Origin: Gemmatimonadota bacterium
GTDB taxonomy: Bacteria; Gemmatimonadota; Gemmatimonadetes; Longimicrobiales; Gaopeijiaceae
Direction: 5' to 3'
Assembly (NCBI GenBank): GCA_030428885.1
Contig: JAUIEJ010000005.1
Span: forward strand, 1 to 64,000
DNA: 64,000 nucleotides
Part shown: piece after piece, positions 23,043 through 43,700 of the stretch
Layout of the letters: the number at the start of each line of letters is the position of its first letter
How positions within the stretch are numbered: position 1 is the stretch's first letter
Translations under genes and position numbers: made by a program
Notes under the pieces: model-generated
The model's input: only the letters and a program-made list of their open reading frames with translations
Databases searched by the model: none
What the model was told of the DNA's origin: nothing

Positions 23043-24845
23043 GTGCGGAACGACGACAGAATCCGGCGGCGAGGGCGTGGATGGCCCGCCGCCCTCCTGG
23101 CCCTCCTGGCCGGTGCGGCCGGCCCGGCTCCGGGAGCGGCCCAGGTGGCCGACTACCTGAACCACGACGACTTCACGCGGGAACTCCGATCGGTGGTGAA
23201 CGCCTCCGACGCGGCGACCCTCAGCTCCATGGCCACCTCGCCCGGCGGGCGGGACGTGTGGATGGTGGAACTGAGCCTGCCCGGCGATCTGGACCCCGAC
23301 GAACGCCCGGCGCTCCTGGTGGTCGGCACCCTGTCCGGCGACCACGTGGCCGGTAGCCACCTGGCCCTGGAGGCGATCCGGCACGTGACCGCCGCCGCCG
23401 GTTCGGCCGAAGGGCGAGCCCTCCTGTCGGAGCACACCATCTACGTCGTGCCCCGGGCGAACCCCGACGGCGCCGAGGCCATGTTCGGATCGGTGCGGTG
23501 GAACCGAAGCGTCAACGGCCGGGCGTTCGACGACGACAACGACGGTCGCACCGACGAAGACGGGCCCGACGATCTGAACGGTGACGGCATGATCACCTTC
23601 ATGCGGGTCGCCGACCCCGAGGGCGACTTCATCGTCGATCCCGACGATGCCCGGCTCATGAAGCGGGCCGACGCGGCGGCGGGGGAGGCCGGCACCCACA
23701 CCCTCTACGTCGAGGGGCGGGACGACGACGGCGACGGCTTCTACAACGAGGACGGCCCCGGTGGGGTCGACCTCGACCGCAATTTCCAGCACGTCTATCC
23801 CTACTACCAGCGCGCAGCCGGGCCCCACATGGTGAGTGAGCCCGCCTCCCGTGCCCTGGTCGACTTCGCCGTGGCCCACCGCAACATCGCCGCGGTGCTC
23901 ACCTACGGGCACTCCGACAACCTGGTGACCCCCCCGGACTCCCGGGGTCAGTTGGGTGGCATCGCGCCCTCCGACCTGTACCTCATGACGTCGGAGTCCC
24001 TCGACGGGATCTTCGACGTGGGGGTGTGGTCGTCCCGGCCCGACAACCTCCAGGGCGGCCTCGACCTCCGGGGCGCCCAGCCCGGAAGCGACAACAACCC
24101 CAACTCGGGGCGCCGCCCCGCCGAGACGGTGGACGGCGACGACATCGAGTACTTCGCCCACGTGTCGGAGCGGTATCGGGAGATCACCGGCCTGGAGTCG
24201 GTGGGCGTAAACCGGCCCGCCGAGGGAGCGTTCTTCCAGTACGGCTATTTCCAGTTCGGAGTCCCCTCGTTCGCCACCCAGGGATGGGCGCCGGCGGTGC
24301 CCGACGACGTGGAACGCGGTGCCTCCACCGACGTCCGCATGGCGGCGGCCGGAGCCGAGTTCGTGGCCTGGACCCCGGCGTCCCACCCCACCCTCGGTGA
24401 CGTGGAGGTGGGCGGGTTCGCGCCCCACGCCCTGACCAATCCCCCCGCCGAGGAGCTTCCGGCCCTGGGCGAGCGTCAGGGGGAGTTCATCATGGCTCTC
24501 ACCGGCATGCTGCCCCAGGTCCGCATCGTCGACACCGAGGTCACGGCCCACGGCGGCGGCATCTTCACCGTCGAGGCGGTGGTGGAGAACACGGGCTACT
24601 TCCCGTCGTCCATGCGGCACGGCGTCGTGGCCCGCTCGGTGGATCCGGTCCTCGTCCAGATCGGCGTGGACCCCGAGGCCATCGTCACGGGAGACGCCAA
24701 GTCGGGCACCGTGAGTCAACTCGAGGGGTCGGGCAATCGCGCGCGCTTCACCTGGGTGATCCGGGGCAACGACGGCCAGTCCGTCGAGATCCGGGCCCGA
24801 GCCCAGAAAGGCGGCCTGCACACCATGACCGTGACCCTGAGGTAG
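23043..24845 (+). CDS. M14 carboxypeptidase-like protein with degenerate catalytic site
   Basis: 600 residues from GTG 23043, six bases after GAGGAG; the 475 leading codons of the track ORF are shadow. A signal peptide (GWPAALLALLAGAAGPAPGA) exports it. M14 fold markers are GTLSGDHVAGSHLALEAI, IYVVPRANPDGAEAMF and VDLDRNF. The zinc motif HxxE reads S98-G-D-H101, and the catalytic Glu segment reads FGVPSFATQGW, so the usual ligands and catalytic Glu look absent. Acidic Ca-binding-like inserts (DDDNDGRTDEDGPDDLNGDG) are shared with the active paralogue four bases downstream. It is probably a pseudopeptidase, binding partner or altered enzyme. The C-terminal ~110 residues form a beta domain. Confidence 0.82.
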   Translation: MRNDDRIRRRGRGWPAALLALLAGAAGPAPGAAQVADYLNHDDFTRELRSVVNASDAATLSSMATSPGGRDVWMVELSLPGDLDPDERPALLVVGTLSGDHVAGSHLALEAIRHVTAAAGSAEGRALLSEHTIYVVPRANPDGAEAMFGSVRWNRSVNGRAFDDDNDGRTDEDGPDDLNGDGMITFMRVADPEGDFIVDPDDARLMKRADAAAGEAGTHTLYVEGRDDDGDGFYNEDGPGGVDLDRNFQHVYPYYQRAAGPHMVSEPASRALVDFAVAHRNIAAVLTYGHSDNLVTPPDSRGQLGGIAPSDLYLMTSESLDGIFDVGVWSSRPDNLQGGLDLRGAQPGSDNNPNSGRRPAETVDGDDIEYFAHVSERYREITGLESVGVNRPAEGAFFQYGYFQFGVPSFATQGWAPAVPDDVERGASTDVRMAAAGAEFVAWTPASHPTLGDVEVGGFAPHALTNPPAEELPALGERQGEFIMALTGMLPQVRIVDTEVTAHGGGIFTVEAVVENTGYFPSSMRHGVVARSVDPVLVQIGVDPEAIVTGDAKSGTVSQLEGSGNRARFTWVIRGNDGQSVEIRARAQKGGLHTMTVTLR

Positions 24846-26712: not shown

Positions 26713-27135
26713 TCAGGGCGCGGAGGCGCCCGATTCCTTCCTCCGGCCGGTGAAGGTGCCCGATCCGTAGTCGCCGAAGTCCACGGTGCCCTCCACCAGG
26801 GCTCCGTCCTTCACGGTGGCCTGATAGGTGATCTGGAAGTCTCCGGTGTCCATGGCCACCACGGCCACGAACCGCACCGCGGCGCCCTCGATGGTGCCGG
26901 CCAGATCGCCCACCGCCATGGTGCTGGCGATGGTCCCGGTGAGTTCGTTGCCGTCCTGGGCGAACTCCACGTCCCGGGTGCCCGTGCCGTTGGGGGACTC
27001 CACGGTGAGCACCCACGCGCCGGTGAGGTCGGCGGCGGGGGGCTCGGGGTCCTGGGCCGTGGCGGGCGCGGCCACGGCCACCGTGGCCAGCAGGGAGAAG
27101 AGGGCGGGGCGGAAGATTCGGAGCGTGCGATTCAT
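26713..27135 (-). CDS. Small exported protein of unknown function
   Basis: 140 residues with a signal peptide (ALFSLLATVAVAAPATAQ). The mature ~110 residues are beta-rich: LTGAWVLTVESPNGTGTRDV, FAQDGNELTGTIASTM, DFQITYQATVKDGALVEGTV and a GSGTFTGRRK end, reading like a small lipocalin-type or avidin-type barrel of repeated antiparallel strands. No catalytic motif or cysteine is visible. It is divergent from the Ig-like protein at 27298 and convergent with the M14 pair, separated by a hairpin. I do not recognise a named family beyond this fold impression. Confidence 0.7.
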   Translation of the reverse strand: MNRTLRIFRPALFSLLATVAVAAPATAQDPEPPAADLTGAWVLTVESPNGTGTRDVEFAQDGNELTGTIASTMAVGDLAGTIEGAAVRFVAVVAMDTGDFQITYQATVKDGALVEGTVDFGDYGSGTFTGRRKESGASAP

Positions 27136-39277: not shown

Positions 39278-40168
39278 ATGCGTGTGGCCGTGGCGGCGGT
39301 GGTCTGCCTGGCCTGGGGTGGGCGGGCCGCCGCCCAGGCCCGGGTCGGCGTGCCGGCGATGCGGGACGATGGGCCGGTGGTGCTGGATCGGACCGAGATC
39401 CATCGCTTCACCTCGGCGGTCAACGGCGTGGAGTACGAGCTTCGCCTGGCGATCCCACGGGAGTACGGCGACGGCGATGAGGCATTCGACGTGCTCGTGC
39501 TCCTGGATGCCGACTATTCGTTCGCCATCGCCCGCAACGTGGTGGACCACCTCTCCGACCGGGACCATCTGCGCCCCCTCCTGATCGTGGGCGTCGGCTA
39601 CCCGGACGAATCGGGATACCAGGTGAACCGGACCCGGGACTACACCCCGTGGTTCTCCCCCAGCGGAGGCTACGGCCCCGGACCCCAGAGCCACTCGGGC
39701 GGTGCCGCCGATTTCCAGCGTGTGCTCGACGAAGAAGTGCTGGCCTGGCTCGACGCGCATTGGCGCACCACGGGGACGCGCACCCTCGTGGGTCATTCCT
39801 ACGGCGGGCTCTTCGCGGCCTGGACGTTCCTGACCCGCCCTGATCTGTTCGAGCGGGTCCTGGCCGTGAGTCCCTCGCTCTGGTACGACGGCGGCCACGT
39901 CTTCGACCTGCAGCGTCAGGTGGCGGCCGGCGTGGAGTCCGGCGAACGCCCCGCTCCGCACGGGCGCATCTACCTGACCGTGGGCGACCGGGAGGTCAAC
40001 GGGTCGGTGGACATGCCCGCCGATCTCGCCCGGTTCCGGGACGTGCTCCGGGGCCCCGCGTGGGACGGGGTGCGGGTCGGGTATGCCGTCGGGGCGGACG
40101 AGACCCACAATTCGATCTTTCCCCGGGCGCTCAGCGACGGGTTGCGGTGGCTCCTGGACGGGGTGTGA
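39278..40168 (+). CDS. Exported esterase D-like alpha/beta hydrolase
   Basis: 296 residues; ATG 39278 has GGGAG seven bases upstream and gives a signal peptide (MRVAVAAVVCLAWGGRAAAQ). The fold matches the esterase D/IroE family (COG2819 type): RLAIPREYGDGDEAFDVLVL, LLDADYSFAIARNVVDHLSD and LIVGVGYPDE. Ser is in TLVGHSYGGLFAAWTFL, Asp in YLTVGDREVNG and His in GADETHNSIFPRAL. Substrates of the family include S-formylglutathione, siderophore esters and simple acyl esters; here the target is unknown. It follows the peptidase pair by 80 bases. Confidence 0.87.
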   Translation: MRVAVAAVVCLAWGGRAAAQARVGVPAMRDDGPVVLDRTEIHRFTSAVNGVEYELRLAIPREYGDGDEAFDVLVLLDADYSFAIARNVVDHLSDRDHLRPLLIVGVGYPDESGYQVNRTRDYTPWFSPSGGYGPGPQSHSGGAADFQRVLDEEVLAWLDAHWRTTGTRTLVGHSYGGLFAAWTFLTRPDLFERVLAVSPSLWYDGGHVFDLQRQVAAGVESGERPAPHGRIYLTVGDREVNGSVDMPADLARFRDVLRGPAWDGVRVGYAVGADETHNSIFPRALSDGLRWLLDGV

Positions 40169-40184
40169 GGCGGGCCGTCCCGCC

Positions 40185-40213
40185 TTGACACCGGAGGGGT
40201 GGTCGGCGCATCA
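40185..40213 (+). promoter_or_regulatory. Candidate promoter with perfect -35 TTGACA
   Basis: TTGACA (40185-40190) is a perfect -35; 17-18 bases later the sequence reads GCATCAC, a poor -10. The distance to GTG 40248 is about 36 bases. TTGACACCGG also occurs at 4201 before the flavoprotein gene, again with a weak -10. Low confidence because only the -35 is convincing. Confidence 0.3.
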
Positions 40214-40247
40214 CCCTTCGAGCGTGCGCCACCCACAGGAGAACCGC

Positions 40248-40685
40248 GTGACCCGCACCGTCTATCCCGGCCGGACCCTCTCGACCCGCGATGTCGCCAT
40301 CAACGTCGCTGTGCTGGCGATGGGTGCCATCGTGACGTTCCAGTTGCTGTTCGCCGGCCCCGGCACGCGGATCCCGGCCCTCGTGGTGGGCGGGCTCCTC
40401 GTGGCGTACCTGGTCGTCTTCGTGTACCGCTTCGCGAAGGCCGGCGAATCGCTCAAGGTCGACCCGAGGTTCGTGGTTTTCGGGGGGAAGCGGGTGCCTC
40501 TCGAGGCGATTCAGTCGGTGGAGCGCGGTCCCGCCGACCCGGACGGGCCCATGTTCTGGGTTTACCTCCACACGTCCGACGGCAGGCACACCATCGACTT
40601 CGGGCGCTATCGCATGGACCGGCCCGAACAGGAGCGGGTGTTCGAAGCGCTCCGAAACGCCGTGGAGGGCGGCGAGGGCGCCTGA
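40248..40685 (+). CDS. Small membrane protein with PH-like domain
   Basis: 145 residues from GTG 40248, chosen for AGGAG six bases upstream and because earlier codons are unlike protein. Two membrane helices (INVAVLAMGAIVTFQLLFAG and IPALVVGGLLVAYLVVFVYR) are followed by a cytoplasmic beta domain, LKVDPRFVVFGGKRVPLEAI, MFWVYLHTSDGRHTIDFGRY, and a final helix (PEQERVFEALRNAVEGG). Two helices plus a bacterial PH-like fold is common in envelope proteins of unknown role. It stands between the esterase and the amidohydrolase, with its own possible promoter. Confidence 0.75.
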   Translation: MTRTVYPGRTLSTRDVAINVAVLAMGAIVTFQLLFAGPGTRIPALVVGGLLVAYLVVFVYRFAKAGESLKVDPRFVVFGGKRVPLEAIQSVERGPADPDGPMFWVYLHTSDGRHTIDFGRYRMDRPEQERVFEALRNAVEGGEGA

Positions 40686-40770
40686 CCGGCCCGCCGGCGC
40701 TCCCGTCGGTTTGCGCCCCACCCCCCCGGCCCGGATCTTGGCCGGATCCTCCTTCCCCTTCGGAGTCTCC

Positions 40771-43700
40771 ATGGTCCGTCGTCGTCTATCTCCGGCCCTC
40801 GTCGTCGCCGCCGTCCTGCCCGTCGCCGCCGGGGCCCAGTCCCCCGCGCAGAACGACAGCGCCGCCGCGGCCGCCCGCCGCGCCGACGGTCTGCCGCTGA
40901 TCACCACCCGCACCCTGTCGTTCACCACCGACGAGGGCACCTGGATCAGCCTCGACGTGCATCCCGACGGGTCGACCCTCGTGTTCGAGCTCCTGGGCGA
41001 CCTGTACACGCTGCCCGTGGAGGGGGGGACCGCCACCCGCATCACCCAGGGTCCCGCCTACGACATGCAGCCCCGGTATTCGCCCGACGGCGAGCGCATC
41101 GTCTTCGTGAGCGACCGGGACGGGTCGGAAAACGTCTGGATCGCCGGCGCCGACGGCTCCGATCCCCTGCCCCTGACCCGGGGGGAGCGGGAGAGTTACA
41201 TGTCGCCCGTGTGGGCCCCCGACGGCCCCTACGTGGTGGCGGCCAAGGGGTCCCAGCTCTGGCTCTATCACACCGACGGCGGCTCGGGCGTCCAGATCAC
41301 CGGTCATCGCGAGGAGGGCGGCCCCACGCCGGCGAGCAATCTGGGTCCGGCCTTCGCCGCCGAACCGGCGCACCTCTGGGTGAACGTCCGGGGCAATCTC
41401 GGCGGCGGCTTCGATCTGCCGGGAGGGGTCGAGGGCGCCGACCCGACCTGGGACGACGAGCCCCACCGGGCCCTGGGCGGCCCGCAGTCGTCGGCGCGGG
41501 AAGTGGGCAGCTTCCAGATCGGCCTCCTGGAGCGGGAGACCGGCGACGTGCGGATCCGCACCCACGAGATGGAAGGGGCGTTTCGCCCCGTGGCGAGCCC
41601 GGACGGCCGGTGGCTCGTCTACGCCACCCGCTACGACGCGCGTCAGGCCCTGAAGCTCCTGGACCTGGAGACCGGCGAGGAGTCGTGGCTCCGCATGGAC
41701 GTCCAGCGCGACGACAGCCAGGGCGGCGGGTCCCGGGACCGGGACGTCATGCCCGGCTCGGCCTTCACCCCCGATTCGGAGGCGCTGATCACGAGCTGGG
41801 GCGGGAAGCTGTGGCGGGTGGCCGTGCCCTCGGGGGAGGCCACGGAGATTCCCTTCACGGCCGACGTGGAGATGGACCTGGGACCCCTGGCCCGGTTCGA
41901 CTACCCCATGGACGACTCGACCCTCGTCGTGTCGCAGATCCGGGGAGCGCGCCCGTCGCCCGACGGGACCCGGGTCGTGTTCAGCGCCCTGGACAAGCTG
42001 TGGATCGCCGATCTGCCGGCCCCGGACGCCGCGTCGCCGGACGACTCGACGCCCCCCACCGTCACCGACGCCGAACGCCTCACCGACGGCACCGACGTGG
42101 AGCATGCGCCGGTGTGGTCGCCCGACGGGCGCTGGATCGCCTGGGTGACCTGGAACGACTCGGCCGGGGGCGACATCTGGCGCATGCCCGCCGCCGGCGG
42201 CGCGGCTCAGCGCCTCACCCCCGCGTCGGCCTTCTACGACAAGCTCGCCTGGTCGCCCGACGGGGCGAGGCTCGTGGCGGTGCGGGGGTCACGCCAGCAC
42301 CGCATGCGCACCCTGGAGGACTTCGGGCGTCACTCGGCGGCGGCCGAGCTGGAGTACGTCTGGCTCCCGGCCGAGGGTGGCGAGCCCCGGCGCATCACCT
42401 GGGTGGGCTCGGCGGCCACCCAGGAGGGCCGCAACGCCCCCCATTTCGGTCCGGATCCGGAGCGGGTGGTGATCTGGACGGGCTCCGACGGCCTCGTGTC
42501 CATGCGCCTCGACGGCACCGACCCCCGGACGGTGGTGAAGGTGTCGGGCCCACGTTCGCCGGGAGGTGGAGCCGGCAGCCCCGACGAAGTGGTGCTGTCG
42601 CCCGACGGTACCCGGGCCCTGGTGCGGTCCAACCGCCACGTCTTCCTCATCACCGTGCCGCCGGTGGGGGGCGAGGTGCCCACGGTGAGCGTGGGAGGGT
42701 CGTCGGTCGTGCCGACCCGGCAGCTCACGGTGGTGGGCGGCGACTTCGTGGGGTGGCGGCCCGACGGCGCCGTGGCCCACTGGTCCATCGGGCGGAGCTT
42801 CTTCCAGGCCGACGTGGCCGCTCTGGAGACGGCTGTTGCCGATTCGGTGGCCGCGGCCCGGGCGGAGCGGGCCGCCCCGGACTCGGCCGATGCCGAGGCC
42901 GATGCGGCCCCCGACGAGGCGGCGGCCGACGAGGCCGACGAGGCGGGCGAGGCCGACGACGACGGTCCGGCCTACGAACCGTCCCGCGTGGACCTGGAGA
43001 TCGTGGTGGAGAAGGACAAGCCCCGGGGTACGTTGGTACTCCAGGGGGCCCGCCTCCTCACCATGCGGGGCGACGAGGTGGTGGAACGGGGCGACGTGGT
43101 GGTCACCGACAACCGCATCGCCGCCGTGGGACCGTCGGGTTCGGTGACCTGGCCCGACGACGCCCGGGTCCTGGACGTCGCGGGCGCCACCATCATGCCG
43201 GGGCTGGTGGACATCCACGCCCACACCTGGGTGGCCTGGGGCGTGCACCGGGACCAGGTGTCCCAGTTCATGGCCCAGTTGGCCTACGGCGTCACCACCC
43301 AGCGCGATCCCCAGACCTCGTCGGAAGACGTGGTGACCTACGGCGACCGCATGGAGATCGGCGAACTCCTCGGTCCCCGGCTCTATTCCACGGGGCCGGG
43401 CATCTTCTCGTCCGACGGCATCGGCAGCCTCGACGAGGCCCGGGACGTGGTGCGGCGCTACGCCGACCACTTCAACACCAAGACCATCAAGCAGTACCTG
43501 GCCGGCGACCGGAAGGTGCGCCAGTGGGTGATCATGGCCGCCCACGAGATGGGGCTGACGCCCACCACCGAGGGCGGGTCGAACTTCACCATGAACCTCA
43601 CCCTCATGCAGGACGGCTACGCGGGGCTGGAGCACTCCCTGCCCATCGCCCCCTTCTACGACGACGTGGTGCGGCTCGCGGCGTTCAGCGGGCTCACCTA

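Follow-up and report, generated by a model that had tools for sequence, protein, structure and literature searches.

Two adjacent genes in the analysed window (the whole 64,000-nucleotide stretch of DNA) encode M14-family proteins that probably form a single two-subunit exported carboxypeptidase, with the upstream product (P1) as a pseudoenzyme subunit on which the downstream, catalytically complete product (P2) would depend. This reading rests on the loss of the catalytic residues in P1, the complete active site of P2, the near-perfect co-occurrence and order of the two genes, the purifying selection on P1, and the joint inheritance of the pair. The persistence of this dead-plus-live pair across many distantly related phyla suggests that the dead partner contributes to the function of the enzyme rather than being a gene in decay. 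The features of the pair are collected in Table 1. Peptidase_M14 was the sole Pfam family matched in either protein, at 71.9 bits for P1 and 143.1 bits for P2 against a curated cut-off of 21.6, and no NCBIfam model matched P1 or P2. As the earlier note on this DNA had stated, an intact paralogue follows four bases past the stop codon of P1; in relatives, the start of P2 overlaps the P1 stop or sits shortly after it. The source genome (5.4 Mb) contains about 18 M14-family genes, a large carboxypeptidase-like set. Another of its M14 proteins (genome G000, contig C20, about 165800-167300; locus L001, 943-3189) has His69, Glu72, and Glu270, while its third zinc His is apparently Asp (SMDTRVPM) and its Asn144 is replaced by His, so that its zinc site is possibly altered.

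Table 1 Features of the P1/P2 gene pair, with positions in the window.
Feature	Position	Strand	Basis or remark
P1, M14-fold pseudopeptidase, predicted exported, 600 aa, GTG start	23043..24845	+	ORF, Pfam, alignments, AlphaFold2, Foldseek
P1 Sec-type signal sequence, about residues 1-34	within 23043..24845	+	sequence
P1 former HxxE zinc motif, S98-G-D-H101	23334..23345	+	joint alignments
P1 first acidic, calcium-type loop DDDNDGRTDEDGPDDLN, about residues 163-179	23529..23579	+	common to P2
P1 second acidic, calcium-type loop DDDGDGFYNEDG, about residues 227-238	23721..23756	+	conservation
P1 GVDLDRNF segment, residues 241-248, counterpart of Asn144-Arg145; Arg246 kept	23763..23786	+	alignment
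P1 Tyr254, strongest inter-protein covariation, with P2 Asp367	23802..23804	+	MI-APC
P1 former third-His segment, T-Y-G289-H-S-D292-N293-L294	23901..23924	+	D292 and N293 are P1-specific near-invariants
P1 former catalytic-Glu segment, F-A-T-Q413-G-W	24270..24287	+	E270 column
P1 C-terminal region, about residues 438-600, beta-rich domain at its end	24354..24842	+	DSSP of model; conserved P461, G550
P1/P2 junction ctgaggTAGagcgATG, P1 stop and P2 start, ribosome-site-like GAGG within the final P1 codons	24837..24852	+	sequence
P2, M14 carboxypeptidase with complete active site, predicted exported, 595 residues	24850..26637	+	Pfam, alignments

Joint alignments showed that all four M14 catalytic columns are replaced in P1 (H69 by S98, E72 by H101, H196 by G289, and E270 by Q413), whereas the same columns in P2 hold H111 and E114 (in an HGNE motif), H305, and E377. 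The earlier note had placed S98 and H101 at the zinc His and Glu and had read FATQG as the former catalytic-Glu segment; both placements proved correct, and the loss extends beyond them. The third zinc His column of P1 holds Gly289, with the neighbouring His of TYGHSDNL off by one residue, and Tyr248 has no counterpart. With its zinc ligands and general base replaced, P1 belongs to M14 through its ancestry and fold, but its active site is not that of the family. The set in P2 is completed by R202, N259 (N144), R260 (R145), and Y355 (Y248), and the Y248-E270 spacing of CPA is kept as well. The nearest solved relatives of P2 by sequence were carboxypeptidase T and the A/B carboxypeptidases. Ile362 of P2, which from the CPA spacing we take to be the CPA-255 specificity position, suggests a preference for hydrophobic C-terminal residues. 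The loss in P1 was found throughout its relatives. Among 111 non-redundant P1 sequences, 98 retained none of the four catalytic residues, ten retained one and three retained two, which was the maximum. All four were present in 107 of 108 P2 sequences, the remaining one ending before Glu270 at a contig end, and in each of the 33 M14 relatives used for comparison. Glu occupied the E270 column in none of 110 P1 sequences versus 107 of 107 P2 sequences, and only one of 110 P1 sequences had His in the H196 column. Several divergent upstream partners, mostly from planctomycetes (loci L118, L241, L243, L244, L120, and L139), were observed to keep one or two zinc ligands and never Glu270; that of L241 has HGDE at the zinc motif. 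These proteins may represent intermediate steps of active-site loss.

A profile search with P1 recovered the pair, with the dead gene upstream, from at least eight phyla (Gemmatimonadota, Rhodothermota, Bacteroidota, Aminicenantes, Acidobacteriota, Calditrichota, Verrucomicrobiota, and Planctomycetota), which supports the proposal that this is a conserved dead/active M14 pair. Across 395 Gemmatimonadota genomes, P1 lay directly upstream of P2 in 48 of 48 cases, P2 being counted at matches of 397 bits or more; two additional P1 matches without P2 were both at contig ends. P2 was present in about 50 of the 246 Planctomycetota genomes, and the dead P1 was directly upstream in 39 of the 40 fetched P2 loci (one P1 being partial at a contig end), while at the fortieth the contig ends at P2. 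The only unlinked case was a Phycisphaerales genome (G408; L205 and L206) in which both genes are kept on separate contigs. No gene fusion of P1 and P2 was seen among the collected loci, and no third conserved neighbour gene was found, the recurrent matches coming almost entirely from antisense or shifted reading frames of P1 and P2 themselves. A different tandem M14 pair was noticed at locus L069 (genome G033, contig C39, about 39700-43700); neither of its proteins has lost any of the catalytic residues, so a tandem arrangement of M14 genes need not mean a dead/live pair. Over 62 loci, the P1 and P2 distance matrices were correlated at 0.90, a value reached in none of 2000 permutations, and close cross-phylum pairs, for example Vicinamibacterales/Opitutus, were seen in both proteins. 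The pair therefore appears to move as a unit.

The structure of P1 was predicted with AlphaFold2 from a 47-row alignment (mean pLDDT 91.4, pTM 0.92). The best Foldseek match in the PDB was carboxypeptidase T (TM 0.73 over the target), the fold matches were to M14, and the model has the funnelin alpha/beta fold. A normal zinc site in the structure, which would have spoken against the earlier note, did not appear; the M14 fold is present with the ligand positions substituted. The further claim that the acidic inserts and C-terminal domain are retained also held, with the loop acids conserved at 91-100% in P1. In the first loop, D163, D165, D167, E172, D173, and D177 are conserved at 92-100% in P1 and 97-100% in P2, and the motif would be consistent with calcium binding. 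D227, D229, D231, E236, and D237 of the second loop are conserved at 91-99% in P1. Further near-invariants of P1 are Y402, P461 (Lys in P2), and G550. In two relatives (L066, 7870-10080; L067, 3-1595), P1 contains an additional inserted domain, about 100 residues long, that follows the former catalytic-Glu segment; at this place other relatives have Gly/Ala-rich spacers. A small secreted protein encoded downstream of the pair (26713-27135, minus strand) was considered as a match to this inserted domain and rejected, the BLAST comparison being not significant.

Covariation between the two proteins was analysed by MI-APC on 90 paired sequences. The highest-scoring pair, whether inside one protein or across the two, was P1-254/P2-367 (0.578), with the best intra-protein pair at 0.509; when the proteins were simulated as evolving independently along the pair tree, the maximum was 0.389 in 25 runs, and the inter-protein signal dropped when near neighbours were swapped. 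The residues found are Y, E, F, or H at P1-254 and D, E, or G at P2-367. The signal stems mostly from three states at the level of clades, and the general observed background was also above the simulation, so this pair is a lead and not proof. Position 367 of P2 presumably corresponds to about CPA residue 260, beside the specificity loop, and P1-254 comes just after the segment matching Asn144-Arg145; by this placement both would lie near the active-site rims. Co-occurrence and covariation could also reflect a pathway link without contact. An AlphaFold2 prediction of a read-through P1-P2 chain (verrucomicrobial locus L099) folded both halves without a confident arrangement (pTM 0.51), which is weak negative evidence on an interface since its alignment held only seven paired rows.

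The three readings offered by the earlier note fared differently: the results most favour a partner subunit, leave an inhibitor or chaperone role as a less probable option, and lend little weight to changed chemistry. In the favoured model, P1 and P2 would together make up a single exported M14 carboxypeptidase that bears calcium-type loops, with P2 as the catalytic subunit, probably trimming hydrophobic C-terminal residues. P1 would be a homologous subunit of ancient origin that lacks a zinc site and probably sits near the active-site rim of P2, and P2 would need it in order to fold, remain stable, or bind substrate. In a more tentative extension, which we regard as possible without being probable, the vestigial funnel rim of P1 would cover the active-site funnel of P2, so that P1 would serve as a subunit dedicated to gating P2 or selecting its substrates. 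The M14 pair would then parallel the two-chain enzymes of M16, and would have been kept across bacterial phyla since an ancient duplication.

P1 might instead act as an inhibitor or pro-region-like cap in the active-site funnel of P2, keeping P2 latent until export or cleavage, much as the prodomains and protein inhibitors of animal carboxypeptidases bind the active-site funnel and keep the enzyme latent. No M14 prodomain separates the signal sequence of P2 from its catalytic domain, P1 is translated first, and the covarying positions fall on predicted active-site rims (P1 254 and P2 367; also P2 276 and 362). A full 600-residue P1 with a conserved C-terminal domain and calcium-type loops nevertheless exceeds what a cap needs, and the fused-chain model predicted no interface; we consider a cap unlikely. 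A folding or secretion chaperone for P2 that stays outside the mature enzyme is less likely still. It would account for the near-perfect co-occurrence, the first place of P1 in the operon, and the predicted export of both proteins, but P1 as modelled has the appearance of a mature, stable exported protein that matches P2 in size. Equally improbable is that P1 by itself binds a ligand or C-terminus and feeds or regulates the pathway of P2 without contact. The R127 position is R in 108 of 109 P1 sequences and the R145 position in 90 of 109 (108 of 108 in P2), and a new P1-specific Asp-Asn motif occupies the pocket (D292 in 97% and N293 in 92% of P1, both Gly in P2). Against such a lone binding protein, several lineages lack R145, and the strict adjacency and inter-protein covariation indicate a closer link.

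Residues at the lost positions bear on two further readings. At position 98 (n = 108) P1 has E in 44 sequences, D in 22, H in 11, and S in 6, among others, and at position 101 (n = 109) H in 67, Q in 13, D in 8, and R in 8, among others. Conservation of S98 and H101 in orthologues had been proposed as a check; these residues vary, and the alignments indicate that the conserved feature of P1 is the loss of the catalytic set and not S98/H101 as such. The commonest states, E or D at 98 and H at 101, would fit an enzyme of changed metal chemistry with ExxH for HxxE in many members. Such an enzyme is very improbable, as other members have Q, D, R, F, or T in place of H101, with Gly or Ser at the third ligand position and P, R, or Q at that of the general base; a replacement metal site of ExxH and a shifted His was sought in P1 and no such set is conserved.

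In the tree, P1 sequences form one clade apart from P2 and other M14 proteins (SH-aLRT 95-99), with one divergent planctomycete P1 (L118) falling on the other side, so P1 is not a recent copy of P2. Among closest relatives dN/dS was mostly 0.13-0.23 for P1 versus 0.09-0.21 for P2, with P1 values of up to 0.46 at greater distances, at which synonymous sites have become saturated; by these ratios P1 is under purifying selection. That P1 is a decaying duplicate of P2, of which the earlier note would have taken random substitutions in relatives as a sign, is already contradicted and scarcely credible: the replacements at 98, 101, and 413 do vary, but the single ancient clade outside P2, low dN/dS, intact frames across phyla, kept gene order, and P1-specific invariants rule decay out.

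Comparison with known systems begins with carboxypeptidase T and the A/B-type M14 enzymes (funnelins), which gave the best sequence matches of P2 and the best fold match of P1. They lack the acidic insert loops and C-terminal domain of P1 and P2. A/B-type carboxypeptidases are regarded as single-chain enzymes, and we know of no pseudoenzyme partner for these or for carboxypeptidase T. No published dead/live M14 pair from bacteria was found in the open-access literature. If a bacterial M14 enzyme is almost never found apart from a dead sister gene, many of the annotations 'M14 peptidase' in phyla from soil and water would refer to one half of a two-part enzyme, and the P1 halves would be misread as active. 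The more than 100 paired sequences also constitute a natural series on losing catalysis while staying needed.

Dead/live pairs are well known in M16, as in MPP alpha/beta and the bacterial SPH2681/SPH2682 and TTHA1264/TTHA1265 (PMC12731061). These M16B pairs, and AlbE/AlbF, resemble P1/P2 in combining homologous chains of which one lacks the zinc motif, and the dead chain of MPP is needed for function (PMC12731061, PMC11266112). The bacterial pairs are likewise encoded by neighbouring genes. M16B proteins differ in being clamshell endopeptidases of another fold with an HxxEH motif, and P1 and P2 do not belong to them, matching only the Pfam family M14 and the M14 fold. Helicobacter pylori Csd1-Csd2 (M23B) is likewise a dead/live pair, a heterodimer of zinc-bearing and degenerate LytM proteins; one of its crystal forms shows the dead chain reaching into the live groove with its tail (PMC5053510); it has the M23B fold, however, and dimerizes through helical domains. 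The eukaryotic pseudopeptidases AEBP1/ACLP, CPXM1, CPXM2, CPD domain III, and yeast Ecm14 have likewise lost catalytic or substrate residues on an M14 fold; the M14 pseudopeptidases in a 2024 review of metallopeptidase pseudoenzymes are all eukaryotic (PMC11266112). Unlike P1, these eukaryotic proteins keep H69 and mostly E72 (PMC11266112), and they have no dedicated active partner gene alongside, as P1 has in P2.
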